A stretch of DNA of 62,381 bases from contig JAKBCR010000008.1 of assembly GCA_021807675.1 (NCBI GenBank), positions 1 through 62,381 on the forward strand, written 5' to 3'. The position numbers were made by a program, and so were the translations under genes. The notes beneath the pieces were generated by a model. That model did no database searches, had not been told where the DNA came from, and worked only from the letters and a program-made list of their open reading frames with translations. This DNA comes from Pseudomonadota bacterium (lineage in GTDB: Bacteria; Pseudomonadota; Gammaproteobacteria; Steroidobacterales; Steroidobacteraceae). Positions 1 through 60,006 of the stretch are shown in pieces (position 1 is the stretch's first letter; each line of letters starts with the position of its first letter).

Positions 1-30
1 GGTCCTTCCCTGCAACACATGCCTCGCATC

Positions 31-117
31 CTGGCCGGCCCAGCGCGCCTCGAGCAAAAAGCGCGGTTTTTTGCTCGAGGCTCCGCCACCTGCGGCGGCG
101 GGCACTTCCCTAGACCC
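31..117 (+). repeat. Family A stem-loop repeat, copy A1
   Basis: Partial copy of a repeat found six times in the window. Its central hairpin is a perfect 14-bp inverted repeat (47-60 with 68-81, a 7-nt loop between) with an A5 tract facing a T tract. A GC-rich hairpin follows at about 82-100 and then the conserved tail GGCACTTCCC. The left arm of the first hairpin seen in other copies is missing or degraded. It lies just upstream of hemH and resembles a bidirectional terminator in shape. Confidence 0.75.
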
Positions 118-146
118 ATACTTTCTCGGTAGGCTCTCCGACCGGC

Positions 147-28001: not shown

Positions 28002-28105
28002 AAAATCGTCTGGACGATTTTGGACGGCGCAAGCCGGCCCCGAGGGGGCGAGGCCCAGGATGGGCTGAGCAACGCGGCGTAGCCGACTTTGGGCTGATAC
28101 ACCAA
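28002..28105 (+). repeat. Family C stem-loop repeat, copy C1
   Basis: It starts with the perfect hairpin AAAATCGT-CTGG-ACGATTTT (28002-28021), continues GGACGGCGCAAGCCGGCCCC with a second GC stem, and ends near CTGATACACCAA. Copy C3 at 37069 has AAAATTGC-CTGGA-GCAATTTT at the same place, a compensated stem change. The repeat forms most of the region just upstream of the LysM gene's ribosome binding site. Confidence 0.65.
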
Positions 28106-29363: not shown

Positions 29364-29368
29364 TTGAT

Positions 29369-29474
29369 GGCGCTGGACCCGGGCATCGTGCCCGGATCCA
29401 GCGAGCAGCAGGCAAAAGACGAGACTTTTGCCCGCTGCTCGCCGCCTGCGGCGGCGGGCACGTCCCTGCGCCTG
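29369..29474 (+). repeat. Family A stem-loop repeat, copy A2
   Basis: A full copy with three hairpins. The first is GCGCTGGACCCGGGCA paired with TGCCCGGATCCAGCG, the second GGCAAAAG-ACGAGA-CTTTTGCC with flanking GCAG/CTGC, and the third CGCCGC-CTGC-GGCGGCG. The tail is GGGCACGTCCCTGCGCCTG. It lies between the convergent LysM gene and topA and could end transcription from both sides. The remaining about 100 bp to topA shows nothing else. Confidence 0.85.
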
Positions 29475-29575
29475 CGTGACGCCATGTCTACGTCTACGTG
29501 ACGTGGCCCGAGGTCCGCGCGCATACGGGTTGCGCGGGGCGGCGGACGCGGCCGGAGCTGCCGGCTGCAGAGGCC

Positions 29576-33920: not shown

Positions 33921-34790
33921 CTATCCGGCCGCTTCCAGGGCTGAGGCGATCTCGAGCCATCGCTCCTCGAGACTCGAGATCTCGCGCGACAGCTCACCGT
34001 GGCGGGCGCTCAGAGACCGCTGGTCCGGGGCGTCCCTGCCAGCGTAGGTGTCGGGATCGGCAAGGCGCGACTCTATGTCCGAGCGCTCGGCAACCAGGAG
34101 GAACCGGTCGCATGCGCCGCGCAACAGGGCCCGATCGTGAGAGACGAGCAACAGCGTGCCGGCGTAGCTCTTCAGCCAGCTCTCGAGCCACAGCACCGCG
34201 TCCAGATCGAGGTGATTGGTCGGCTCATCGAGCAGCAGCACGTCCGAGCGGCGCATCAGCGCGCGGGCCAGGTTGGCACGCATCTGCAAACCGCCGGAGA
34301 ACTGGCGTACCGGTTGCTCCAGGTCATCGGGCGCGAAGCCCAGCCCCGCAGCCAGCTGCGCGGCGCGGCTCCTCGCCGCGTAACCACCGAGCCGATCGTA
34401 CTCCGCATGCAGCGTCGCCAGACGCGTGCCGTCGGACGGCAGAGGCGCGGGGCTGCGAGGAGCATCACTTGCGGTGACTTCGTGCTGCGCCTCATCGATC
34501 TGCCCCTCGAGCGTTGCGAGCTCGAGGTCACCCCCGCGGATGTAATCGACAAGAGTCGCGCCCGTCTCCGGCAGCTCCTGCGCGACCGCCGCGGTCGCGA
34601 GACCCGGCGATGCGCGGTATTCGCCGGCATCCGGTGCAAGGTCACCGCGAATGAGGGCCAAGAGTGTGGATTTCCCGCAGCCGTTACGGCCTACGATGCC
34701 GACTTTTTCGCCGCGGAAGATGCTGCAATTCGCAGCGTCAACGAGAACCTGCGGCCCGCGGCGCAGGCGGACGTCGGAAAGAGTCAGCAT
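33921..34790 (-). CDS. Half-size ABC-F ATPase, apparently an internal-deletion hybrid
   Basis: ABC-F proteins normally have two ATPase domains in about 530-640 residues and act on ribosomes. This one has 289. It starts like the first domain: Walker A GRNGCGKST at 34-42, signature FSGGLQMRANLARALM near 164-179, Walker B VLLLDEPTNHLDLDAVLWLE. After SHDR (217-220) it continues as ALLRGACDRFLLVAE, which resembles the end of a second domain. It then passes into SRLADPDTYAG and a coiled segment ending LEERWLEIASALE, typical of the extreme C-terminus of YheS-like proteins. Recombination between the two homologous domains would give this. The single ATPase site looks intact. It may be a remnant or a working short form. 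Confidence 0.8.
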   Translation of the reverse strand: MLTLSDVRLRRGPQVLVDAANCSIFRGEKVGIVGRNGCGKSTLLALIRGDLAPDAGEYRASPGLATAAVAQELPETGATLVDYIRGGDLELATLEGQIDEAQHEVTASDAPRSPAPLPSDGTRLATLHAEYDRLGGYAARSRAAQLAAGLGFAPDDLEQPVRQFSGGLQMRANLARALMRRSDVLLLDEPTNHLDLDAVLWLESWLKSYAGTLLLVSHDRALLRGACDRFLLVAERSDIESRLADPDTYAGRDAPDQRSLSARHGELSREISSLEERWLEIASALEAAG

Positions 34791-34808
34791 CGGGGATCAG
34801 GCGCGCGA

Positions 34809-36953
34809 TTACTCGAGCCGTCCTGGGCCTCGCCCCTTCGGGGCCACCGAGCGCGGGAGCGCTCGGTGTTGTAAATCGCTCCCGGCGATTTGCTCGACGC
34901 CGACACCGCCCGCATCCTGCGCGTGGCGCGCGAAGACGGCTCCCGAGGCTGCCTGGCGCTGCAGCAACGCGAGCAGCTCCTCGGACTTCAGCGGCTCACC
35001 GAAGAGTCTCCCCTGCGCGTAGTGACAGCCGGCGCGGCGCAGGAACTCGAGCTGGCTGACCGACTCCACGCCCTCGGCGATGACCTCGATCTCGAGGTTG
35101 CGGCCCATCTCGATGATGGTACGAACCAGGGTGGCGTTGCCGGCGTTCTCGCCGACGTCGCGCACGAAGGACTGATCGATCTTGAGCGTGTCGATAGGGA
35201 ACTGCTGCAGGGCGGAAAGCGAGGAGTAGCCCGTGCCGAAGTCATCGATGGACAGATGCAGACCCATCGCGTAGAGCTCGTCGAGCAGGCGCAGGGTGCG
35301 CTTGGTGTCCGCCATCAGCGTGGTCTCGGTGATCTCGAGCTCGAAGGCGGTCGGCGAGACGCCGTGGCGGCGGAACACGGAGCGACAGCGCAGGATGAAG
35401 CTGGCCTGGCGCAGCTGCTTCAGGGAGAGATTGAGCGAAATGCGACCGGGGTCACCGATCTCGGTCTGCATCTGCCGGTAATCCATGCAGACACGATTCA
35501 ACACCCACTCGCCGATGTCGAGGATGAGATTGGTCTCCTCCGCCAGCGGGATGAACCGGGAGGGCGGGATGTCGCCGTGTCCCGGCAGTCGCCAGCGCAG
35601 CAACGCCTCGGCGCCGATGATGCGGCCGCTCGCGATGTCCACCTTGGGCTGGTAGCGGATCACGAGCTCATCGCGCTCGAGGGCGCGACGCAGCTTGCTC
35701 TTGAGGATCAGCCGCTCGACGGCCGCGGCGTTCATCTCCGGAGAATAGAAGGCGAACGTATTGCCGCCGTTCTGCTTCGAGTAGTACATCGCCGCGTCGG
35801 CGTTACGGATGAGGTCGATCACGTTCTCCGCGTCGCGCGGGCAGAATGCGATACCGATGCTGGCCGTCAGAAATACTTCGTGCTGGTTCAACTGGAAGGC
35901 GCGGCTCACCTCCGTGAGCACGGCGCGCGCGAGGTGCGCGATGGGGCCGCGGTTGTCGGCCTCCGCGGGGAGGCCGTCGAGCACCAGGGCGAACTCGTCA
36001 CCGGCGAGGCGTCCGAGCAGCGCGCCTTTCGGCAGTGCGCCCGTGAGACGCTCGGCCAGTACCTCGAGCACGCGGTCCCCGGCGCCATGCCCGAAGGTGT
36101 CATTGACCTCCTTGAAGCGATCCATGTCGAGGTAAAGGAGCGCCACCGCCTGCCCGCTGCGCAGCCCTCTCGCGATGGTCTGCTGCAGCACGTGCTGGAA
36201 CTGCATGCGGTTGGGAACCTTGGTGAGCGCATCGTAGCGGGCGAGGTAACGGATGCGCCGCTCCGCTCGCTTGCGGTCGGTGATATTGCGCGCGACGAAG
36301 ATGTTGCCCTGAAACTGCGGATCGGCGCTCTCGATCCTCGACCCGGTGAGCGACACGGGGATGGTCTGCGCCCCGCGGGTGCGCACCACGGTCTCCCGGG
36401 TTTCCTGGGCGGCTTGCATCAGGTCGAAGCCTTCGCGCTCGCGCTCATCCAGGATCGCGACGATGCTGCGTCCGAGGAGCTCCTCCTCACTGTACGCGAG
36501 CAGCTTGCAGGCGGCGGAATTGGCCACCTTCACGACCCCGTCCGGAGAGGTGACGAACACGGCGTCCGTCATGCTGTTGAGGACGCTGTGAAGGTAATTT
36601 TTATGAATGGTCGATTGGCGCAGCCTCGAGCGCATGCGCTCGAGGGCCTGCTCCAGCTCGCCGATGATGTCGCTGCGGCGGACCTCGATCTGCCGGGTAT
36701 AGTCGCCCTGGCCGACGCGCTCGGCGCTGCGAATGAGCGCCGCCGTGGAGGACTGAATGCCGCGGGCCGCCCGCCAGGCGATCACCGCCGCGACGAGACT
36801 GCCGAAGACGGCCAGCGCGCTGACCCCCTGGACGGTAAGCGGATCGGGCGGGAGCCGCCAGATGAGAAATCCGATCACGGCGGCAGTCGCGAGCAGCACG
36901 ATCGCAAACGCGGCACTCGCGTACTTCAGCTTGAGATTGGCGGACTTCACCAA
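34809..36953 (-). CDS. Membrane PAS-GGDEF-EAL cyclic-di-GMP protein
   Basis: The 714-residue protein has two N-terminal transmembrane helices (about 10-32 and 42-60), a HAMP-like segment, a PAS domain (about 120-230), a GGDEF domain (235-400) and an EAL domain (405-665). The cyclase signature reads RLAGDEFAL, that is AGDEF. The EAL domain keeps EALLRW, SLNLSLKQL, ELEITET, DDFGTGYSSL and LKIDQSFV, so phosphodiesterase activity on c-di-GMP is likely; cyclase activity is uncertain. The final about 28 residues are encoded by repeat C2 and are not part of the EAL fold. ATG 36953 is the start. The HD-domain gene lies upstream on the same strand. Confidence 0.92.
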   Translation of the reverse strand: MVKSANLKLKYASAAFAIVLLATAAVIGFLIWRLPPDPLTVQGVSALAVFGSLVAAVIAWRAARGIQSSTAALIRSAERVGQGDYTRQIEVRRSDIIGELEQALERMRSRLRQSTIHKNYLHSVLNSMTDAVFVTSPDGVVKVANSAACKLLAYSEEELLGRSIVAILDEREREGFDLMQAAQETRETVVRTRGAQTIPVSLTGSRIESADPQFQGNIFVARNITDRKRAERRIRYLARYDALTKVPNRMQFQHVLQQTIARGLRSGQAVALLYLDMDRFKEVNDTFGHGAGDRVLEVLAERLTGALPKGALLGRLAGDEFALVLDGLPAEADNRGPIAHLARAVLTEVSRAFQLNQHEVFLTASIGIAFCPRDAENVIDLIRNADAAMYYSKQNGGNTFAFYSPEMNAAAVERLILKSKLRRALERDELVIRYQPKVDIASGRIIGAEALLRWRLPGHGDIPPSRFIPLAEETNLILDIGEWVLNRVCMDYRQMQTEIGDPGRISLNLSLKQLRQASFILRCRSVFRRHGVSPTAFELEITETTLMADTKRTLRLLDELYAMGLHLSIDDFGTGYSSLSALQQFPIDTLKIDQSFVRDVGENAGNATLVRTIIEMGRNLEIEVIAEGVESVSQLEFLRRAGCHYAQGRLFGEPLKSEELLALLQRQAASGAVFARHAQDAGGVGVEQIAGSDLQHRALPRSVAPKGRGPGRLE
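34812..34896 (-). repeat. Family C stem-loop repeat, copy C2 (inverted, coding)
   Basis: On the minus strand it starts CGAGCAAATCGCCGGGAGCG, whose AAATCGC-CGGGA-GCGATTT stem is identical to that in C3. It continues with a CCGAGCGC/GCGCTCGG stem and a GCCCC-GAA-GGGGC stem. It lies wholly inside the 3' end of the GGDEF-EAL gene and supplies its last codons and neighbourhood of the stop. Confidence 0.65.
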
Positions 36954-36992
36954 GGGCTAATCGCTCAGTTGGCCCCATATTACGACAGATCG

Positions 36993-37037
36993 AGAGCAAA
37001 TGAGCGAGCGGCCCAGGGCCGTCCCTGGGCCGCGGGG
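36993..37037 (+). repeat. Family B palindromic repeat, copy B4
   Basis: It reads GAGCAAATGAGCGAGCGGCC followed by CAGGGCCGTCCCTGGGCCGCG, so GGCCCAGGG and CCCTGGGCC form a strong stem. It stands 40 bp ahead of the start of the GGDEF-EAL gene, within its leader if transcription starts upstream. Copy C3 follows after 31 bp. Confidence 0.65.
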
Positions 37038-37068
37038 GGTCAATCGAGCAAGAAGGTTGGCCGCGCAC

Positions 37069-37160
37069 AAAATTGCCTGGAGCAATTTTGGACGGCGAAG
37101 CCGGCCCGGAGGGCTCGGCTCAGGATGAGCCGAGCAAATCGCCGGGAGCGATTTGCACCA
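37069..37160 (+). repeat. Family C stem-loop repeat, copy C3
   Basis: Three hairpins in order: AAAATTGC-CTGGA-GCAATTTT (37069-37089), GCTCGGCTCA-GGA-TGAGCCGAGC, and AAATCGC-CGGGA-GCGATTT, ending GCACCA. It fills the space between the HD-domain gene stop (37166) and the GGDEF-EAL gene. With B4 it accounts for most of the 212-bp gap. Confidence 0.7.
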
Positions 37161-37165
37161 ATGAG

Positions 37166-38191
37166 CTAATACCCCGACCAGACTTTCTTTATGTAACCTA
37201 CCATGAGGCCCCGCATGGTGGACATGGGGTCGGCGGCGGCGGCGAAGATGGGCGGCTTGCGCCGCAGCAGCCGCCAGTTCTCGCTCCGCAGCACCTGCCG
37301 CAGATAATCGACATTGCGGTCGATCGCCTCCACGTAGGGGTTTCGGCCCTGATAGAGGTTCTCGAGATGGCGATAGGCGGCGCGGAACTCCCGCTCCAGC
37401 CGCTTCTCGCGCACCTCCGCCACGAAATCCGGCGTCTGGCGCAGCAGGTCCAGACCCGAGGCGTACTTGACCTGCCGGCCGCCATTGGCGGCAATCGGCA
37501 GCGCGACCCCGCCGAGGACGAATTCGGCGTAAAGCCGGTCGCGACACTTCTCGAGATAACAGCGATCCGCCATCTGCGCGATCATGTCGGCGGTGCCGAG
37601 GAGATGCCCCACGGCGATGTCGCGCGGATCGGGAACACGCGCCTCGATCTCGGCGAACGGCAGCTCGTAGCCGGTGAAATGGATGATCTCGCGCGCGATC
37701 GGCACCCAGGCGGCGAGGCCGACCTCGGGCAGGAACTCCTCGAGGAAGCGCGCGCCGCGCGAGACATGGATCCGGGTGAACTCCGCGCCATTGCGCGAGT
37801 CCTGGTCGTCGGCACGGCGCAGATACCCGACATCATGGAAGAGGCCCGTGATGAGGCCGGCGACGGCTCGCTCCCCGCCGAGGCGCTCGACCTGCGAAGC
37901 CTGACGCTCGTACCCGACCAGCAGGCGCGCCAGCGCCAGGGTGATGTCGAGCGTGTGCTGACGGTCGTGGTAGACGGTGTCCACGCCGTAAAAGCCCGGT
38001 ACTTCGCCCGCGAACAACCGCTCGAAGTGCGCGAACGATCGTCGCAAGGGCTCCAGGGGCGCATCGGGCCAAGTGGGCCTGTAAAGTGCCTCGACCGCGC
38101 GCAGCACCGCCTCCGGGGAGCTCACCTGAACGGAATTGGTAACATCGAAGTCACTGCGCCGGGCGCTGCTGATTCTGGTGATTTGTAGCAC
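37166..38191 (-). CDS. HD-domain phosphohydrolase-like protein
   Basis: The 341-residue protein contains an HD domain. The metal-binding histidines and aspartates are visible in YHDRQHTLDITLALARLL, LITGLFHDVGYLRR and REIIHFTGYELPF, with HLLGTADMIAQMADRCYLEK further on. HD domains hydrolyse phosphomonoesters or cyclic nucleotides. The C-terminal 110 residues are specific to this subfamily and unknown. GTG 38191 (VLQITRISS) is chosen; the frame stays open upstream but is not conserved. It lies upstream of the GGDEF-EAL gene on the same strand, separated by repeats B4 and C3. A role in nucleotide signalling is possible but not shown. Confidence 0.82.
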   Translation of the reverse strand: MLQITRISSARRSDFDVTNSVQVSSPEAVLRAVEALYRPTWPDAPLEPLRRSFAHFERLFAGEVPGFYGVDTVYHDRQHTLDITLALARLLVGYERQASQVERLGGERAVAGLITGLFHDVGYLRRADDQDSRNGAEFTRIHVSRGARFLEEFLPEVGLAAWVPIAREIIHFTGYELPFAEIEARVPDPRDIAVGHLLGTADMIAQMADRCYLEKCRDRLYAEFVLGGVALPIAANGGRQVKYASGLDLLRQTPDFVAEVREKRLEREFRAAYRHLENLYQGRNPYVEAIDRNVDYLRQVLRSENWRLLRRKPPIFAAAADPMSTMRGLMVGYIKKVWSGY

Positions 38192-38310
38192 GGCCTTATG
38201 CCGCTCCGCCGGGAGCGAGATTCCGGCCAGTCTATGAGCCGTTCCCCCCTGCCACTGCGAAACGTCGCACAGTTTTCCCGCTTTCCGGCAGGCAGCGCAT
38301 CGAGAAGTGC

Positions 38311-40350
38311 CTAAGCGGCCGTCTCTCCCGGGGCGACTATGCCGTGCTGCAGCAGGAGCGGCCGGATCTGCGGGCGTCGCCCCCGGAACTCGACGAAGGC
38401 TTCCAGGGCGTCCCGGCTGCCTCCCCGCGAGAGGATGGAATCGAGAAATCGTTGCGCCGTAGTCCGGTCGAAGACGCCCCGCTCCTCGAAGGCCGAGAAG
38501 GCGTCCGCGGCGAGGACCTCGGCCCACTTGTAGCTGTAATACCCGGCCGCGTAGCCGCCGGCGAAGATATGTCCAAAGCTATTGGCGAAGCGGTTCCATT
38601 CCGGTGCCGGCACGACCCCCACCTGCCGCCGCACTTGCTGCAGCACCTCACGCACGCGCCCGCCGCGCTCCGGTGAGTACTCGGCATGCAGCCGGAAATC
38701 GAACAGCGCCAACTCCAGCTGCCGCACCATCTGCAGCCCCGCGTGGAAGCTGCGCGTCGCGCGCAGCCGATCCTGCATCAGCGCCGGCAGCGGCGCCCCG
38801 GTTCGGTAGTGGCTCGAGATGCGGCTGAGCACATCGGGGTGCCACGCATAGTTCTCCATGAACTGGCTCGGCAACTCGACGGCATCCCAGGCGACACCGT
38901 TGATACCTGCGATGCTCGGATAGTCGACGCGCGTCAGCAGATGATGAAGGCCGTGCCCGAACTCGTGAAAGAGTGTCAGCACGTCATCGTGCGTGAGCTG
39001 GGCCGGACGGCCATCGCCGGGAGGCAAGACATTGCACACGAGATAGGCGACCGGCAGCGCCGAGCCCGAGTGCAGATGCTTGCGGCCGATGCACTCGTCC
39101 ATCCAGGCGCCGCTGCGCTTGCTCGGCCGCGCGTAAGCGTCGAGATAGAAGCTGCCGACCGGCCGGCCGGCGGCGCTCTCGATCTCGTAGAAGCGGATGT
39201 CAGGGTGCCACACCGGGGCGCCGCTTCGCTCACGGATGCGCACGTCGAAGAGCCTCTCGGCGACCTCGAACAGACCCGCGAGCACCCGCGGCAGCGGGAA
39301 GTAGGGGCGCAGCTCCTCCTGCGAGACGGCGTAGCGCTCGCGCTGCAGCCGCTCCGCATAAAACCCCACGTCCCAGGCTTCGAGCTTAGCTCCGGCGAAA
39401 GCCTCGAGCTCCTCGAACTCCTTCACGGCCGCAGGCCGCCCCGATCGCGCCAACTCCTCGAGAAACTGCATGACTTCCGCGACGCTGTGCGCCATGCGGG
39501 TGGCCAGCGCGTACTGCGCGTAATTGCCGAAGCCGAGAATCCGCGCCGCCTCGTAACGCTTGCGCAGGATCCGCTCCATGGCGTCCGCGTTGTCCCACTT
39601 TCCGGCATTGGGGCCCTGATCTGAGGCGCGCGTGGTCCATGCCTCGTAAAAGGCGCGGCGCAAGACCTCGGACTCCGCGTCGGTCACCACTGCGACGTAG
39701 GTCGGTTGGTCGAGCGTCAGGATCCAGCCTTCGAGCCTCTGGTCGTGGGCGCGCCGGCGCGCCTGATCGATGAGCATCTCGTTGAGGCCGCGAAGCAGCG
39801 CCCGGTCCGTGACCCGGTAGCTCCAGCCATTGGTCGCATCGAGCACGTTCTCCTCGAACTTCGCCTGCAGTCCGGTGAGCTCCAGCATCACGTCCTTGAA
39901 GCGCTGCTTGTCGGCGGCGGCGAGTCCGACGCCGGCGAGCCGGAAGTCGCGCAGTGCGTGCTCTATCACGCGGCGTTGCGCCGGATCGAGCCCGGCGCCT
40001 TCCCGCTCCTCGATCGCGCGGTAAGCCCGGAAGAGCGGCTCACTCTGGGCAAGATCGGTGTGGTAGGCGGAAAGAAGCGGCAGGCAGGTGTTGTATGCGG
40101 CGCGCAGCGCCTCGGAGTTGAGTACGGCGTTCAGGTGGCTCACGGGCGACCAGGTGCGCGACACCCTGTGCTGCAGCTCTTCCAGCGGCTCCACGACGGT
40201 GGCGAAGGTCGGGGCATCCCGGGCGGCGATCTCGTCTATTCGCTCCCGGGCACGGGACAGCGCCGCACGAACCGCCGGCTCGACGTGCTCCGGCCGGATG
40301 CGCGGAAAGGCCGGGAGCGGCTCCTCGGCGAGCAGGGGATTGTCCATCAT
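38311..40350 (-). CDS. prlC: Oligopeptidase A (M3 family zinc peptidase)
   Basis: This cytoplasmic zinc metallopeptidase degrades short peptides, including cleaved signal peptides. The 679-residue protein has the M3 fold. The active site HEFGHGLHHLLTRVDYP holds the HExxH motif, and the downstream glutamate is in NGVAWDAVELPSQFMENYAW. IRFYEIESAAGRPVGSFYLD and AGYYSYKWAEVLAADAFSAF are also typical. The start is ATG 40350 or 40347. It is divergent from glutathione reductase. Confidence 0.96.
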   Translation of the reverse strand: MMDNPLLAEEPLPAFPRIRPEHVEPAVRAALSRARERIDEIAARDAPTFATVVEPLEELQHRVSRTWSPVSHLNAVLNSEALRAAYNTCLPLLSAYHTDLAQSEPLFRAYRAIEEREGAGLDPAQRRVIEHALRDFRLAGVGLAAADKQRFKDVMLELTGLQAKFEENVLDATNGWSYRVTDRALLRGLNEMLIDQARRRAHDQRLEGWILTLDQPTYVAVVTDAESEVLRRAFYEAWTTRASDQGPNAGKWDNADAMERILRKRYEAARILGFGNYAQYALATRMAHSVAEVMQFLEELARSGRPAAVKEFEELEAFAGAKLEAWDVGFYAERLQRERYAVSQEELRPYFPLPRVLAGLFEVAERLFDVRIRERSGAPVWHPDIRFYEIESAAGRPVGSFYLDAYARPSKRSGAWMDECIGRKHLHSGSALPVAYLVCNVLPPGDGRPAQLTHDDVLTLFHEFGHGLHHLLTRVDYPSIAGINGVAWDAVELPSQFMENYAWHPDVLSRISSHYRTGAPLPALMQDRLRATRSFHAGLQMVRQLELALFDFRLHAEYSPERGGRVREVLQQVRRQVGVVPAPEWNRFANSFGHIFAGGYAAGYYSYKWAEVLAADAFSAFEERGVFDRTTAQRFLDSILSRGGSRDALEAFVEFRGRRPQIRPLLLQHGIVAPGETAA

Positions 40351-40613
40351 TCACCTCGATTCTGTTGGCGCGGAGCGCCGCGGCGGCCGGAAGACTATGC
40401 GGAGCAATTTTGAATGCCGGACGTTGTCCGGGCGAGCCCGTAAAGCGCTGGGGCGCGTAGAGCCGCGGCGCATCGACGCGCCGAATCACTACCGGCGAGA
40501 CGCGCACACAGTCACCGGAGCGACCGCCGGGTTGACTTCGCCGGCAAGAACGCGGCTTTTACCGGCCTGATCGGTCCCTTTCGGTCCAACCATTCTGCCA
40601 GCTAAAATGCCGC
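40351..40613. other. Divergent intergenic region prlC-gor
   Basis: A 263-bp gap that must hold both promoters. A perfect hairpin CCGGAC-GTT-GTCCGG lies at 40417-40431, preceded by GGAGCAATTTTG, which matches 12 bases of the first family C stem, so a decayed C copy is possible. TTGACT (40532-40537) and TTTTAC (40557-40562), 19 bp apart, form a weak promoter candidate toward gor. Confidence 0.4.
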
Positions 40614-41963
40614 ATGGGTGAATTTGATCTCATAGTGATCGGAGGCGGCAGCGGCGGGCTTGCCGCGGCACAACGCGCGGCAGAGTACGGCGCCAGGGTG
40701 GCGCTGGTGGAGTCGCACCGTCTGGGTGGCACCTGCGTGAACGTCGGGTGCGTACCGAAGAAGGTCATGTGGAACGCGGCCGATCTTGCCGAGGGGCTGC
40801 GGGACGCGCCCGACTACGGCTTCGCAGTTTCGGCGGGGATGCACGACTGGGCACTTCTCAAGGAGAAGCGCGACGCTTACGTCATGCGCCTGAACGGGAT
40901 CTACGAGGGCAATCTCGCCAAGCGTGGCGTCACGCTCGTCCGCGGCCGTGCGCACTTCCTGGACGGGCGGACGGTCGCGGCAGCGGGCTCCTCGCTCTGC
41001 GCGCCCCATATCATCATCGCCACCGGTGGCCGTCCGTTGCTGCCGCCCATCCTGGGTGCGCAGCTCGGCATCACCTCCGACGGCTTCTTCGATCTACCGC
41101 GCAGGCCTGAGCGGGTCGCGATCGTCGGCAGCGGCTATATCGCCGTGGAGCTGACCGGCATTTTCGCCGCGCTCGGCTCGAACGTGACGCTCGTCCTGCG
41201 GGGCGAGACGGCACTGAAGCATTTCGACTCCATGATCGGAGAGTCGATGCTGAAGATCCTTCGCGATGAGGGCGTGAGCATCGTTACACAGGCGTGGCCC
41301 TCGGCGCTCGACTGCGACGCACGGGGATCTCTCGCGCTCTCACTTCGCGACGGGCGACGGCTGGAGCCGTTCGACTGCGTGCTCTGGGCCATCGGGCGCG
41401 CGCCCGCGGTGGAGGAGCTGGGACTCGAGCGGCCGGAAGTGGAGCTCGATGCCTATGGCTTCATCGTCACCGACAAGTATCAGAACACGAGCGTCCCCGG
41501 CGTGTACGCCATTGGCGACGTCACCGGCAGGGCGCCGCTGACGCCTGTGGCGATCGCGGCCGGCCGCCGCCTGAGCGATCGTCTCTTCGGCGGCAAGGGC
41601 GACCGGCACCTCGACTATCACAACATCCCCACGGTCGTGTTCGGGCACCCCCCGATCGGCACCGTGGGCCTCACCGAGCAAGCCGCACGCGACGACTATG
41701 GCGATGAGGCTGTCACCGTCTTCAAGTCGAGCTTCATCCCGATGTACCACGCGCTCACCACGGCCAAGCCGCGCTGCGACATGAAGCTGGTGACCGTCGG
41801 TCCGAAGCGGCACGTCGTCGGCGTGCACGTCGTCGGCCCCGGCGCGGACGAGATGATGCAGGGCTTCGCGGTCGCCGTGAGGATGAGGGCCACCAAGGAG
41901 GACTTCGACGATACGGTGGCGATCCATCCCACCAGCGCCGAAGAGCTGGTCACGATGCGGTAA
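40614..41963 (+). CDS. gor: Glutathione-disulfide reductase
   Basis: A flavoprotein that reduces oxidised glutathione with NADPH. The 449-residue protein has the FAD-binding [20 protein letters not shown] and the redox-active disulfide in [16 protein letters not shown]. The NADPH-binding domain follows ([20 protein letters not shown]), then the FAD motif [19 protein letters not shown]. The C-terminal [12 protein letters not shown] provides the catalytic histidine-glutamate pair from the partner subunit. ATG 40614 begins the FAD fold directly. Its end overlaps the convergent aroE gene by 14 bp. Confidence 0.96.
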
Positions 41964-42780
41964 GGGCCGCGAGCACCGGCCCGGTGAGTGGCCTCGCCCC
42001 GCGCCAAAGACGGAAGGACTCCGCGGCCTGCTCGACGAGCATGCCCCAGCCCGGCACTGCCGCGCGGCAGCCGACCTCCACGCTCCAGCGGACGAAGGGG
42101 GTGTCGCCACCCTTTCCGTATGCCATGTCGTAGCAGAACGTATCGGATCCAACCACGGACACCGGCAGGTCGGGGATCTCTCCCGTGAGGCTCGCGGAAG
42201 TGGCATTGATGATGAGATCGAATGCCCCGCCCGCCAGATAGCGAAAGCCCACGCCCTGCACGTTGCCCAGTGGCGCGAATGCCGCCGCCAACGCCTTCGC
42301 CCGATCCGCGGTACGGTTGGCGATCACCACCAGCTCCGGCGTAAGGCCGAGGAGCGGAGCGAGCACGCCACGCGCGGCTCCGCCCGCCCCGACGATCAGG
42401 ACGCGGCGGCGGGTCACGACCACCCGTTGATTGACGCAAAGGTCCTGCGTGAGCCCGACCCCATCCGTGTTGTCGCCGAGCAGGGTCCCGTCCTTGCGCA
42501 TCGCCAGAGTGTTGACGGCGCCGGCGTGTTGGGCACGCTTGGTCAGCTCGTCGGCCCGGGCGACGGCGGCGATCTTGTACGGAAGCGTGACGTTCAGTCC
42601 CCGGCCGCCCTGGGCGAAGAACGCGCTGATACGCTCCTCGAAATCCTCCGGCGCGAAGTCGAACAGGCGATAGCTCATGGCCTGGCCCGTCTGGCGCGCG
42701 AACATGGCGTGGATGAAGGGTGAGAGGCTGTGGGCAACGGGGTGACCCACGACCCCGTACTGATCGAGGGAGCCATTCAT
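41950..42780 (-). CDS. aroE: Shikimate dehydrogenase
   Basis: AroE reduces 3-dehydroshikimate to shikimate with NADPH in aromatic amino-acid synthesis. The 276-residue protein has the substrate motif [20 protein letters not shown], the catalytic lysine in [18 protein letters not shown], and the nucleotide-binding [28 protein letters not shown] carries the NADP-preferring arginine. [17 protein letters not shown] and [18 protein letters not shown] close the fold. The start is ATG 42780. It is convergent with gor, with overlapping 3' ends. Confidence 0.96.
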
Positions 42781-42849
42781 GCCCGAATTCTGCTCCCCGG
42801 CCGCGCCGGCGTCACGGCTTGGGTCCTCAGCGGGGCGCGCGAATGGCCA

Positions 42850-43827
42850 TCACACGCCGCGGGCGACGGCCCCGGCCTTCAACTGCCGCACGCTGGCGCC
42901 ACCGCCACGCCCCAGGTCCAGGCAGCCGTGAAGCTGCGGCAGCCAGACCTGCATGCGCTCTGCCAGCTGGTAGGGTGGATTGAGGATGAGCATCCCCGAG
43001 CCGTTGAGCGCCACCCGGGAATCACGCGGGTAGAGCGACAGCTCCGCTGCGAGAAGCTCGCAGTCGAGCTCGCCGGCGAGCGCGGAATGCCACGCCACCG
43101 TGTCGCGCTCGTCCTTGATGGGATACCAGATCGCCACCACGCCGCTGTGGAAGCGTCGGAGCGCCTCCGCAGCGGCGCGCCGGGTCCGCTCGAAGTCCTG
43201 GCGGCTTTCCTCGTACGGCGGATCGATGAAGGTCAGTCCGCGCCGCTCGTGCGGCGGCAGCCAGGCGCGCAGGAGCGCGAAGCCATCGCCGGTCTCGACG
43301 GTGATATGAAGCGCTGGATCCGGGCTTCTGCGCGATCCGCGCGCGTCTCGGTCAAAAAGCGTGGTTTTTGCCCGAGACCCGGCCACCTGCGGCGGCCGGG
43401 CACATCCCTGTACCTGACCAGACAGCGCCCGCTCGAGCGCGCGCGCCTCGGCGGGCTGCCGCTCAATGAGTACCGCGCGGTCCCCCGGGCGCAGCTCGCT
43501 CGCGGCAAGGAGCGGGGAGCCGGGATAGAGTCGCGGCTCCCCGCGCTCGCGGCGCAACAGCTCGACGCGCTCGACATAGTGTCGCAGCTCCTGTGCCCGC
43601 AAGCGCCAGCCGTCACCGTCGGCGCTCGCTTGCGCCTCGAGGCGCGCGATGCCGGCTGCGGCTTCGCCAGGCGCTCCGGGCAAATCGTAGGCACCGCGGC
43701 CGGCATGCGTCTCGAGATAGAGAAAGCCCTTGTCCTTGCGCTTGAGCGCTGCCAGCAAAGCGAGCAACGTAACGTGCTTGTGCACGTCGGCGAAGTTGCC
43801 GGCGTGGCGAGAGTGCCGGTACTTCAC
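42850..43827 (-). CDS. rlmJ: 23S rRNA (adenine(2030)-N6)-methyltransferase carrying an in-frame repeat insertion
   Basis: RlmJ methylates A2030 of 23S rRNA. The protein starts MKYRHSRHAGNFADVHKHV, as in the family, and has FLYLETHAGRGAYDL (SAM site) and LTFIDPPYEESRQDFER with the catalytic DPPY. The length is 325 residues against about 280-290 for the family. The excess is residues 138-172 (VQGCARPPQV to SPDPA), encoded exactly by family A repeat copy A3 at 43311-43416. The insertion keeps the frame and precedes the strand leading to TVETGDGF. The rest of the sequence looks intact, so the enzyme may tolerate the insert as a surface loop. The next gene ends upstream at 43837. Confidence 0.94.
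   Translation of the reverse strand: MKYRHSRHAGNFADVHKHVTLLALLAALKRKDKGFLYLETHAGRGAYDLPGAPGEAAAGIARLEAQASADGDGWRLRAQELRHYVERVELLRRERGEPRLYPGSPLLAASELRPGDRAVLIERQPAEARALERALSGQVQGCARPPQVAGSRAKTTLFDRDARGSRRSPDPALHITVETGDGFALLRAWLPPHERRGLTFIDPPYEESRQDFERTRRAAAEALRRFHSGVVAIWYPIKDERDTVAWHSALAGELDCELLAAELSLYPRDSRVALNGSGMLILNPPYQLAERMQVWLPQLHGCLDLGRGGGASVRQLKAGAVARGV
43311..43416 (+). repeat. Family A stem-loop repeat, copy A3, inside rlmJ
   Basis: It starts GCGCTGGATCCGGGC and ends GGGCACATCCCTGTACCTG, as do the intergenic copies. The middle hairpin GTCTCGG-TCAAAAA-GCGTGG-TTTTTG-CCCGAGAC and the third hairpin CCCGGCC/GGCCGGG differ in sequence from other copies but pair fully. The first hairpin is altered (GGATC/GATCC). 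Net length in rlmJ is 35 codons with no stop on the coding strand. Confidence 0.9.
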
Positions 43828-47567: not shown

Positions 47568-48545
47568 ATGAAGCCCGCCTTGAATGTCGCGATCACCGGC
47601 GCCGCCGGCCAGATCGGCTATGCCCTCGCCTTCCGCGTCGCCTCCGGCCAGCTCCTCGGGCCGGACCAGCCGGTCAATCTGCACCTGCTCGAGGTCACCC
47701 CGGCCCTGCAGGCGCTGAACGGCGTCGTCATGGAGCTGGCCGACTGCGCCTTCCCGTGGCTCAACAAGGTGGTGGCCTCTGACCAGGCCAAGGTCGCCTT
47801 CCGCGATTGCCACGTCGCGCTTCTGGTCGGCGCGAAGCCGCGCGGACCCGGCATGGAGCGCAAGGATCTGCTGCTCGCCAATGCGCAGATCTTCTCCGCC
47901 CAGGGCAAGGCGCTCAACGAGGCGGCGGATCGCAACGTGAAGGTACTGGTGGTCGGCAACCCCGCCAACACCAACGCGCTCATCGCGCGCTCGAACGCGA
48001 AGGACCTCAACCCGCGCAACTTCACCGCGATGATGCGCCTGGATCACAATCGCGCCCTGTCCCAGCTTGCGGAGAAGACCGGCACTCACGTGACCGACAT
48101 CCGCCGCATGACCGTGTGGGGCAACCACTCCGCCACACAGTACCCGGACATCACTCATACCTTGGTCAAGGGCAAGCCCGCACGCGCGCTCGTCGATGCC
48201 GCGTGGGTGGAGCAGACCTTCATCCCGCTCGTGCAGCAGCGCGGCGCCGCCATCATCAAGGCGCGCGGCGCCTCCTCGGCGGCATCGGCCGCTTCGGCCG
48301 CCATAGATCACGTCCATACCTGGATCCACGGCACCACCGAGGGCGACTGGGTGAGCATGGCGATCCCCTCCGACGGCAGCTATGGCATCCCGGAAGGGGT
48401 GATCTACTCGTACCCGGTGACCACCAAGAACGGCGAGTACCAGATCGTCCAGGGGCTCTCGATCGACGAGTTCAGCCGCAAGCGGATGGACGCCACGCTC
48501 GCGGAGCTGAAGGAAGAGCGCGACGGGGTGAGATCCCTCATTTGA
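47568..48545 (+). CDS. mdh: Malate dehydrogenase
   Basis: NAD-dependent interconversion of malate and oxaloacetate in the TCA cycle. The 325-residue enzyme has [60 protein letters not shown] with the substrate-binding arginines, and [20 protein letters not shown]. The catalytic histidine is in [17 protein letters not shown] 47568 fits the family start. A TAGAAT at 47528-47533 may be the -10 of its promoter. Repeat A4 follows directly after the stop. Confidence 0.97.
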
Positions 48546-48546
48546 G

Positions 48547-48650
48547 GCGCTGGATCCGGGCATACCTGCCCGGCCCAGCGCGCGGCGGACAAAAGGCGCG
48601 ACTTTTGCCCGCCACTCGCCGCCTACGGCGGCGGGCTCGCCCTGTGCCTG
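48547..48650 (+). repeat. Family A stem-loop repeat, copy A4
   Basis: The most regular copy. Hairpin 1 is GCGCTGGATCCGGGCA paired with TGCCCGGCCCAGCGC, hairpin 2 GGCGGACAAAAGGCGCG paired with CTTTTGCCCGCC, hairpin 3 CGCCGC-CTAC-GGCGGCG, and the tail CCCTGTGCCTG. It begins 2 bp after the mdh stop and lies in the 175-bp gap before fadE. The other about 70 bp of this gap shows no clear signal. Confidence 0.88.
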
Positions 48651-48720
48651 CGCTTCAGCGGCGGGCCCGTGGCCATGATGTCTGGTGGGATAGGGACGCC
48701 GCTGGAGTAGACTCCCGCAG

Positions 48721-58833: not shown

Positions 58834-58862
58834 TGCGGGCTTCCCGAGCAGTGATCTGTCCG

Positions 58863-58966
58863 GCGCTGGATCCGGGCCTCCTGCCCGGCCCAGCGCACGG
58901 CCTGCAAAAGGCGCGACTTTTGCCAGCCGTTCGCCGCCCGCGGCGGCGGGCACCTCCCTGTGCCTA
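58863..58966 (+). repeat. Family A stem-loop repeat, copy A5
   Basis: A full copy: hairpin 1 GCGCTGGATCCGGGC/GCCCGGCCCAGCGC, hairpin 2 GGCCTGCAAAAGGCGCG/CTTTTGCCAGCC, hairpin 3 CGCCGCCCGCGGCGGCG and tail GGGCACCTCCCTGTGCCT. It lies in the 303-bp divergent gap between the methyltransferase and PEBP genes, 30 bp ahead of the methyltransferase start. The rest of the gap holds a short GCGCGAGGGCGCGAGGGCGC direct repeat at about 58981 and no clear promoter. Confidence 0.87.
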
Positions 58967-59136
58967 GATTGCATTGGCGGCGCGCGAGGGCGCGAGGGCG
59001 CGGCCGGGATCGTCGGAAGAGCCGGTGACCCGGGCGATTCTCGGGGACTCGGGGGTGGACATGACACCCAGTTTGCCGGACCGCGCCGGGCGCTGCACAC
59101 TTCATCCAATCACCCGGCAGTGAGAGGGCTCGTACC

Positions 59137-59760: not shown

Positions 59761-59832
59761 GCGTCCGGAGCGGTGTGGCTGTTGCGGCGGCGGGGGCCGG
59801 CAGGTAGGCTTCGCGCCCCCATGATCTTCAAT

Positions 59833-60006
59833 TGCCGTGCCAATGGCCATCCTTGGCGGCAGGGCCCCCGGCCCCGCCTTCCGTGGCGGGGCGCTCGCGC
59901 GGATCGAGGACACTTTACGTGCCGTGCCAATGGCCATCCTTGGCGGCAGGGCCCCCGGCCCCGCCTTCCGTGGCGGGGCGCTCGCGCGGATCGAGGACAC
60001 TTTAAG
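59833..60006 (+). repeat. Family D: perfect 87-bp tandem duplication ahead of rimO
   Basis: Two head-to-tail copies (59833-59919 and 59920-60006) differ at a single base near the end. Each contains GCCGTGCCAATGGCCATCCT with a partner TTGGCGGC, then a strong CCCCGCC-TTCCGT-GGCGGGG stem, and ends TCGAGGACACTTTA. The unit is 29 codons long, so a reading frame runs through both copies, but the translation shows no protein-like features. The duplication fills most of the 245-bp gap between the PEBP gene and rimO. Confidence 0.92.

Follow-up and report, generated by a model that had tools for sequence, protein, structure and literature searches.

A three-hairpin repeat lies antisense and in frame within rlmJ of a Steroidobacteraceae-like bacterium and three of its relatives

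Results

The rlmJ locus and its insert

The minus strand of the window (the whole stretch of 62,381 nucleotides that was analysed) carries rlmJ at 42850..43827, an open reading frame of 325 codons plus stop with a GTG start. The translated product scored 173 bits against the Pfam RsmJ profile (PF04378; curated cut-off 27) and shares the fold of E. coli RlmJ; by homology, it is the predicted 23S rRNA m6A2030 methyltransferase. On the plus strand, inside this gene, lies a copy of a hairpin repeat in the short form that has no 3' tail. It was matched at 43309-43417 (113 bits) by R1, a covariance model built from 26 sequences with the rlmJ copy among them, and the usual 5' end of the family, TATGAAGCG, taken from 87 copies in the same genome, extends it to 43305..43417. 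A DNA search with the rlmJ copy, independent of R1, returned 61 genome matches including the copy itself, the best other match being 89% identical.

In a codon alignment the insert occupies rlmJ codons 137-172 (43312..43419, minus strand) and is translated as GQVQGCARPPQVAGSRAKTTLFDRDARGSRRSPDPA; SPDPALHITVETGDGF is an example of the peptide across it. The first-pass annotation had placed an in-frame repeat here and had equated residues 138-172 with this copy (its A3), as the alignment bears out. Its estimate of about 35 excess residues was too high: the excess is 30 residues over the two nearest insert-free relatives (G032 and G035), and ranges from 24 to 34 across 28 aligned RlmJ sequences of the same genus. 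If the unit inserted was 43305-43417 (113 nt), some 23 nt of native loop would probably have been lost.

Three hairpins are formed on the plus strand of the copy, at 43311..43344, 43345..43378 and 43379..43399. The second and third fold like those of the family at large and are backed by family covariation; in the first, the 3' arm carries a variant block resembling other copies of the same genome and deviates from the family fold, with partial pairing still predicted. The earlier statement that the stems still pair inside the gene is thus correct for stems 2 and 3, and only partly so for stem 1. The fold z-score of the copy is -2.6 on the plus strand and -3.2 on the minus strand.

The remainder of the enzyme is intact, as had been claimed. 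The DPPY motif, read from the translation at residues 202-205 (43213..43224, minus strand), is complete, and among 48 RlmJ sequences D202, P204 and Y205 are invariant and P203 is found in at least 90%; PMC3814359 gives 164-DPPY-167 as motif IV of E. coli RlmJ. Outside the insert, dN/dS is 0.148-0.175 in pairs of carriers, comparable to non-carriers (0.176 for G032/G035, 0.161 for L118/L119 and 0.116 for two rlmJ copies of G035), and rlmJ of the carriers is under normal purifying selection. Within the insert, pN/pS is indistinguishable from 1 (Fisher p 0.29-0.76; about 30 synonymous sites, hence weak power), and the insert peptide shows no selection of its own. The stem pairs in the four rlmJ copies described below are kept no better than chance on the mRNA strand (P 0.28-1.0).

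An AlphaFold2 model of the window's RlmJ, calculated from 48 sequences, has a mean pLDDT of 86.6; averaged over ten residues, the values are 92-97 at positions 81-140 and 44-57 at positions 141-170. The model agrees in fold with structures of E. coli RlmJ (TM 0.87-0.90, normalised to target length) and sets the loop between helix 125-142 and strand 174-179. The insert looks, on this model, like a disordered loop in an otherwise normal-looking RlmJ. The position of the loop on the E. coli protein, which the first-pass annotation had proposed to determine, is at approximately residues 128-137, in a stretch that does not align.

Carriers and empty sites among relatives

In the first set of relatives rlmJ was matched in 38 of 60 genomes, own included, and all 28 of the fetched same-genus RlmJ sequences that were aligned lacked the insert, which supplies the empty site that had been sought by such an alignment; this first alignment left out the partial L053 and eight further matching genomes, seven of them of other families. 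A wider set consisted of the best 80 of 495 RlmJ loci and the window's own. Four of these 81 sequences carry the insert, with a loop of 48-50 residues vs 14-38 in the others, and among the best 80 loci R1 matched within rlmJ only in L113, L114 and L115. These belong to the metagenome-assembled genomes REEB272, G2_26 and JOPF214, the RlmJ proteins of which are about 80% identical to that of the window. The insertion is therefore not confined to the window's genome, since three other species representatives have it. The junctions are identical in the four carrier assemblies except for 6 nt at one edge in JOPF214.

No target duplication is readable at rlmJ in the alignment with relatives, because the length of the loop varies among them. 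Among the 81 RlmJ sequences, no close homologue has an unrelated insert of equal length at this place. In L128, L172, L174 and L169 the loop is also expanded, to a lesser extent and by unrelated sequence that is internally repetitive in one case, and R1 had no match in these loci. The G035 assembly contains two different rlmJ copies (on C76 and C218), both insert-free and perhaps indicative of a strain mixture.

The repeat family

At least 134 R1 matches are scattered over the window's genome, that of a soil bacterium, the number being a minimum because scoring covered 150 of 7526 first-look candidates. Matches occurred in 21 of 58 genomes of the same genus and in 4 of 147 genomes drawn from the order (own included in each case), all four of the latter belonging to the window's own genus. 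The family consists of three hairpins in a row and is more than a chance similarity. This is indicated by double changes in 10 of 27 pairs in an alignment of 26 copies that was not fitted to the structure, and in 15 of 27 pairs in a structure-fitted alignment of 116 copies, a value as high being reached in 0 of 500 shuffles. In the latter, 97.6% of the pair cells pair, and single-sided changes such as G-U are rare against 247 double-change cells. Such an excess would fit upkeep of the structure at the level of DNA, or joint replacement of both arms, better than selection on RNA only. In a scan of the whole window no Rfam family rose to its curated or gathering threshold, and the rlmJ locus gave three weak matches below it; the repeat is therefore absent from Rfam under those thresholds.

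Other family copies in the window lie, all on the plus strand, at 13..119 (at the contig end; R1 75 bits), 29368..29475, 48545..48651 and 58861..58967. The second of these sites is empty in G032 and holds another subtype in REEB272; at the third, REEB272 holds an orthologue, G2_26 and, by a weak match, G032 hold elements of a different type, and JOPF214 has none; at the fourth, G2_26 also has an element and R1 found no match in REEB272 or G032. Orthologous sites in the synteny block vary in element content, and identical copies occur in different surroundings, both in support of the earlier statement that the family moves. The elements at the 29368 site have different stem sequences in the window and in REEB272, which suggests replacement or repeated insertion. 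Elsewhere in the genome, one full-length copy (L086, at G000:C428:93947) is apparently nested, as judged by eye, in a repeat of another family, which is also present at 28027-28072 and 34809-34854 of the window. At 59826-59999 an 87-nt unit is duplicated in tandem with 97% identity.

Ends of the element and position relative to genes

The consensus of the 87 own copies in which the 5' edge could be read is TATGAAGCGCTGGATCC. CTAG stands exactly at -10 to -7 in 14 of them and within -13 to -5 in 18. At the 3' side, some copies stop near GTGCCTG and longer ones have a tail ending at about GGGGAACTAG; the unit measures approximately 110-175 nt, and 109-113 nt in rlmJ of the four species representatives. 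In 25 tailed copies, collected with a pattern that already fixed CT or GT, the 5' and 3' tetranucleotides are equal in 10, and under the same pattern 10 of the 13 copies without a 5' CTA have a 3' CTA. A freer 3' anchor yielded 43 sites, 30 of which run on with AA or AG; the two ends agree in 11 of these 30, and a 3' CTA is present in 10 of the 17 without a 5' CTA (counted from the list). The evidence leans towards the 3' CTA being an end of the element's own rather than a duplicated target. With regard to features of miniature inverted-repeat transposable elements (MITEs), no terminal inverted repeats were seen, the ends being different, and no consistent target duplication was seen among the own copies.

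Two properties that the first-pass annotation had read into the rlmJ copy are not distinctive of it. The length of the element is not one that preserves a reading frame, as among 113 own copies the remainders 0, 1 and 2 modulo 3 are distributed 36:28:49. Of 72 copies, 51-68 are open in any one of the six frames; open frames being common on both strands, the stop-free minus strand of the rlmJ copy is not special.

The tetranucleotide CTAG is about tenfold under-represented in the window, 10 being found in positions 1-62381 vs some 97 expected under a first-order model; three of the ten are inside called genes, three at stop codons and four intergenic. The rlmJ copy does not follow a CTAG. Among 67 copies tested, a sense coding frame reaches to within about 12-14 nt of the element in 23 (e.g. 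L014, L028, L068 and L206), a count restricted to frames open to that distance, genes ending further upstream being invisible to the test. All 23 frames stop before the element's GCGCTGG, eight of them by a TAG at the CTAG-consensus position; another 16 copies have an antisense frame and 28 no recognised frame.

Copies inside genes were sought by codon usage trained on 96 long open reading frames, with at least 150 nt needed on both sides. The test drew on 113 own copies (of at least 134 matches), 26 of which were too near a contig end. In only one of the 87 testable copies, that in rlmJ, is one coding frame found on both sides. The samples from the three other carriers, made up of 59 higher-scoring copies to which their rlmJ copies do not belong, gave 0/40 in G082, 0/13 in G081 and 0/6 in G083; at a zero threshold, weak in-frame candidates numbered three in G082 and two more in the window's genome.

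Mobile-element genes were searched for in the same genomes. The Y1_Tnp profile gave 16 matches in 13 of the 58 same-genus genomes. R1 had no match in the 12 Y1_Tnp loci fetched (35566 bases in all), and G032, which is rich in copies, had no Y1_Tnp match; no linkage of Y1_Tnp to the repeat was seen in these data. The search for an autonomous partner used occurrences of the 3'-end pattern across three genomes. It led to 12 stretches, most of them around 3' ends with no R1 match nearby and some around Y1 genes; in two of the first kind (L253 and L254) no transposase was recognised by eye among the open reading frames. The window's genome has a Y1_Tnp gene interrupted by TGA (L262, at G000:C373:9575-9936). 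In G2_26 (L263, G082:C96), where R1 likewise had no match in the fetched loci, a Y1_Tnp frame adjoins a frame of 447 amino acids, the product of which we take to be TnpB-like.

History of the insert

The phylogeny relied upon is a DNA tree of 8409 shared nt from 34130-43300 (a two-gene FastTree had four taxa), in which the carrier REEB272 and the insert-free G032 are sisters at 100%. A split uniting the carriers is rejected on this flanking sequence (AU p 8.5e-5), and is not rejected on rlmJ alone (785 nt; AU p 0.176). Since the flanking sequence does not unite the carriers, the insert has been gained repeatedly, lost, or passed from one lineage to another; a single insertion would call for two losses or more, or else for such a transfer. 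Protein trees of 6 and 11 taxa did not group the carriers either; support at the relevant nodes of the rooted tree is 28-34.

Synonymous divergence is 0.17 in the insert vs 0.44 in the rest of rlmJ, and none of 20000 random sets of 36 codons was as low. The REEB272 insert is as similar to dispersed copies of other genomes (95% G032, 94% G035, 94% G082) as it is to the rlmJ insert of G2_26 (94%), and more similar to them than to the rlmJ inserts of JOPF214 (91%) and the window (90%). Low divergence and closeness to dispersed copies would also fit later, repeated insertion. Intergenic orthologues may be little diverged as well: the 48545 copy is 91% identical to its REEB272 counterpart, and the pair L278/L327 differs at 5 of 108 sites plus two gap columns within 2.1 kb of surroundings that are 13% diverged. 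Other intergenic orthologues are 73-87% identical, frequently with changes on the two sides of a stem. In a FastTree of 116 elements, the rlmJ copies of REEB272, G2_26 and JOPF214 form a group at support 0.68 with L333, a dispersed copy of JOPF214; that of the window falls elsewhere, in a group of 24.

The window copy has 11 private changes at positions where the other three carriers agree, eight of them within 12 nt (P 2e-5 under uniform placement, in a test chosen after the block was seen). Over a block of 24 nt, 21 positions match L020, another copy of the same genome, vs 14-15 in the rlmJ orthologues; the best of 61 copies sampled from the three other carriers matches at 17. Ten of the 113 own copies, that in rlmJ among them, have the variant stem arm, vs one of 92 copies examined in five other genomes. 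In the window lineage the encoded residues would have changed from GAGPGRS to ARGSRRS. From these comparisons, it is likely that the block represents ectopic conversion from other repeats of this genome, by which codons were rewritten; the conversion is likely rather than proven because a few substitutions and two compensating indels could also give the block.

Discussion

The explanation that we favour, at a probability of roughly 75%, is a single antisense, in-frame insertion of a mobile repeat into a length-variable loop of rlmJ before the species separated, later tolerated by the enzyme. Counting against it are the carriers not being a clade, the low divergence of the insert, the place of the window copy apart from the other three in the element tree, the rlmJ site not following a CTAG, and the lack of linkage between the family and the Y1_Tnp loci fetched. 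A different history, in which the loop is a hot spot and copies of an active subfamily inserted separately in several lineages, would account for the carriers not being a clade, for the low divergence of the inserts and for their resemblance to dispersed copies of other genomes, and a site that holds different element subtypes in two genomes does exist at 29368. Against it, the four rlmJ copies share orientation and subfamily as well as the same exit base after CCTGA, a point at which eight of the nine similar dispersed copies shown run on with GT (GTC in six) and L278 does not; they also share a GGTC mismatch, though this is found in the dispersed L325 and L333 too. The rlmJ site, moreover, is not a CTAG, and low divergence is likewise seen in the intergenic orthologues L278/L327. 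We regard separate insertions as quite unlikely. Spread of insert-bearing rlmJ alleles between lineages by homologous recombination is unlikely as well: the phylogenetic discordance, and the failure of rlmJ alone to reject carrier monophyly, speak for it, but no clear drop in synonymous divergence is seen in the windows of 36 codons closest to the insert, and the native bases beside the insert vary among the carriers.

One might argue, from the presence of the insert in four species and its low synonymous divergence, that it has acquired a role, either in the enzyme or as a hairpin of the mRNA, for which selection maintains it. A pN/pS indistinguishable from 1 (with little power), stem pairs that are not kept beyond chance and a peptide predicted to be disordered argue otherwise, and make this very unlikely. 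A metagenome assembly of 430 contigs, in which 26 of the 113 own copies have a contig end no more than 150 nt away, might raise the suspicion of misassembly, or of a GC-rich loop that resembles the repeat by chance. The probability is negligible: the insert is found in four separate assemblies with matching junctions and is therefore no assembly error, a possibility thereby refuted, and neither the 61 genome DNA matches nor the covariation of the family would be expected by chance.

In the favoured scenario of a single old insertion, a non-autonomous hairpin repeat of one uncultured Steroidobacteraceae-like genus would have entered the rlmJ loop antisense and in frame ahead of the divergence of several closely related species. 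The process would have cost some of the native loop, so that the frame would depend on the sum of gain and loss. RlmJ would tolerate the loop, and selection would therefore keep the frame while the peptide drifts. Copies in genes would be exceptional because the element often inserts by CTAG, which is rare in genes, and because of selection. The rlmJ copy may have remained part of the repeat population and received sequence by ectopic conversion; that it keeps exchanging sequence with intergenic copies, with presence of the insert turning over among close species, is less likely than not. The ends of the element may point to mobilisation of the HUH type: set against IS200/IS605-type elements, which have no terminal inverted repeats, subterminal hairpins and a fixed short 5' target, they are asymmetric, with CTAG near 18 of 87 copies. 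Our best guess for the mechanism, a tentative one, is mobilisation in trans by a putative HUH/Y1-type transposase.

In-frame palindromic inserts are already known from the Rickettsia palindromic elements (RPEs) and from intragenic REPs. RPEs are palindromes of 105-146 bp that lie in frame in conserved protein genes; they were reported in 19 reading frames, and Gmk carrying an RPE insert stays active (PMC2229807). The present repeat resembles them, so described, in being a palindromic unit within that size range and in frame in a conserved gene, rlmJ, in four species representatives. Unlike RPEs with their 19 frames, it is in frame in one of 87 testable copies (and in none of 59 sampled in three relatives); it also belongs to another lineage, the Steroidobacteraceae-like repeat having three hairpins in a row. 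REPs, which carry GTAG/CGTC, are mostly intergenic and near gene 3' ends, their termini supply TAG stops, and occasional intragenic copies include some in RNA-modification genes (PMC3733652). To judge by that account, the rlmJ-type repeat is similar in lying mostly outside genes, with TAG stops at its edge and a rare copy in an RNA-modification gene; unlike REPs, single palindromes of 20-40 bp with a GTAG/CGTC tag, it measures about 110-175 nt, has three covarying hairpins and often follows CTAG. Unlike in REP/RAYT systems, no Y1 gene was found beside a repeat copy in the 12 fetched Y1_Tnp loci. The MITEs Correia/NEMIS, ERIC, RUP and YPAL (RU-2) are described in PMC2229807 as small, structured, non-autonomous and mostly intergenic, some being translated as fusions. 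The rlmJ-type repeat fits this description, with one copy that would be translated, and differs from bacterial MITEs in having neither terminal inverted repeats nor consistent target duplication. Among the best 8-15 records listed per literature search, judged by title and opening of the abstract, none described a comparable insertion in RlmJ or a repeat family of this type in Steroidobacteraceae.

What could be new here is the reading as conversion. If true, RlmJ codons are being rewritten from non-coding templates, and a segment of a conserved protein would be subject to concerted evolution. The locus shows clearly that, in bacteria other than Rickettsia too, a palindromic mobile repeat can be taken up into a conserved enzyme; insert-free sites are available for comparison, as are carriers from four species, and selection can be measured. 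It provides a system for asking whether such inserts are merely tolerated, and whether ectopic conversion can rewrite coding sequence.
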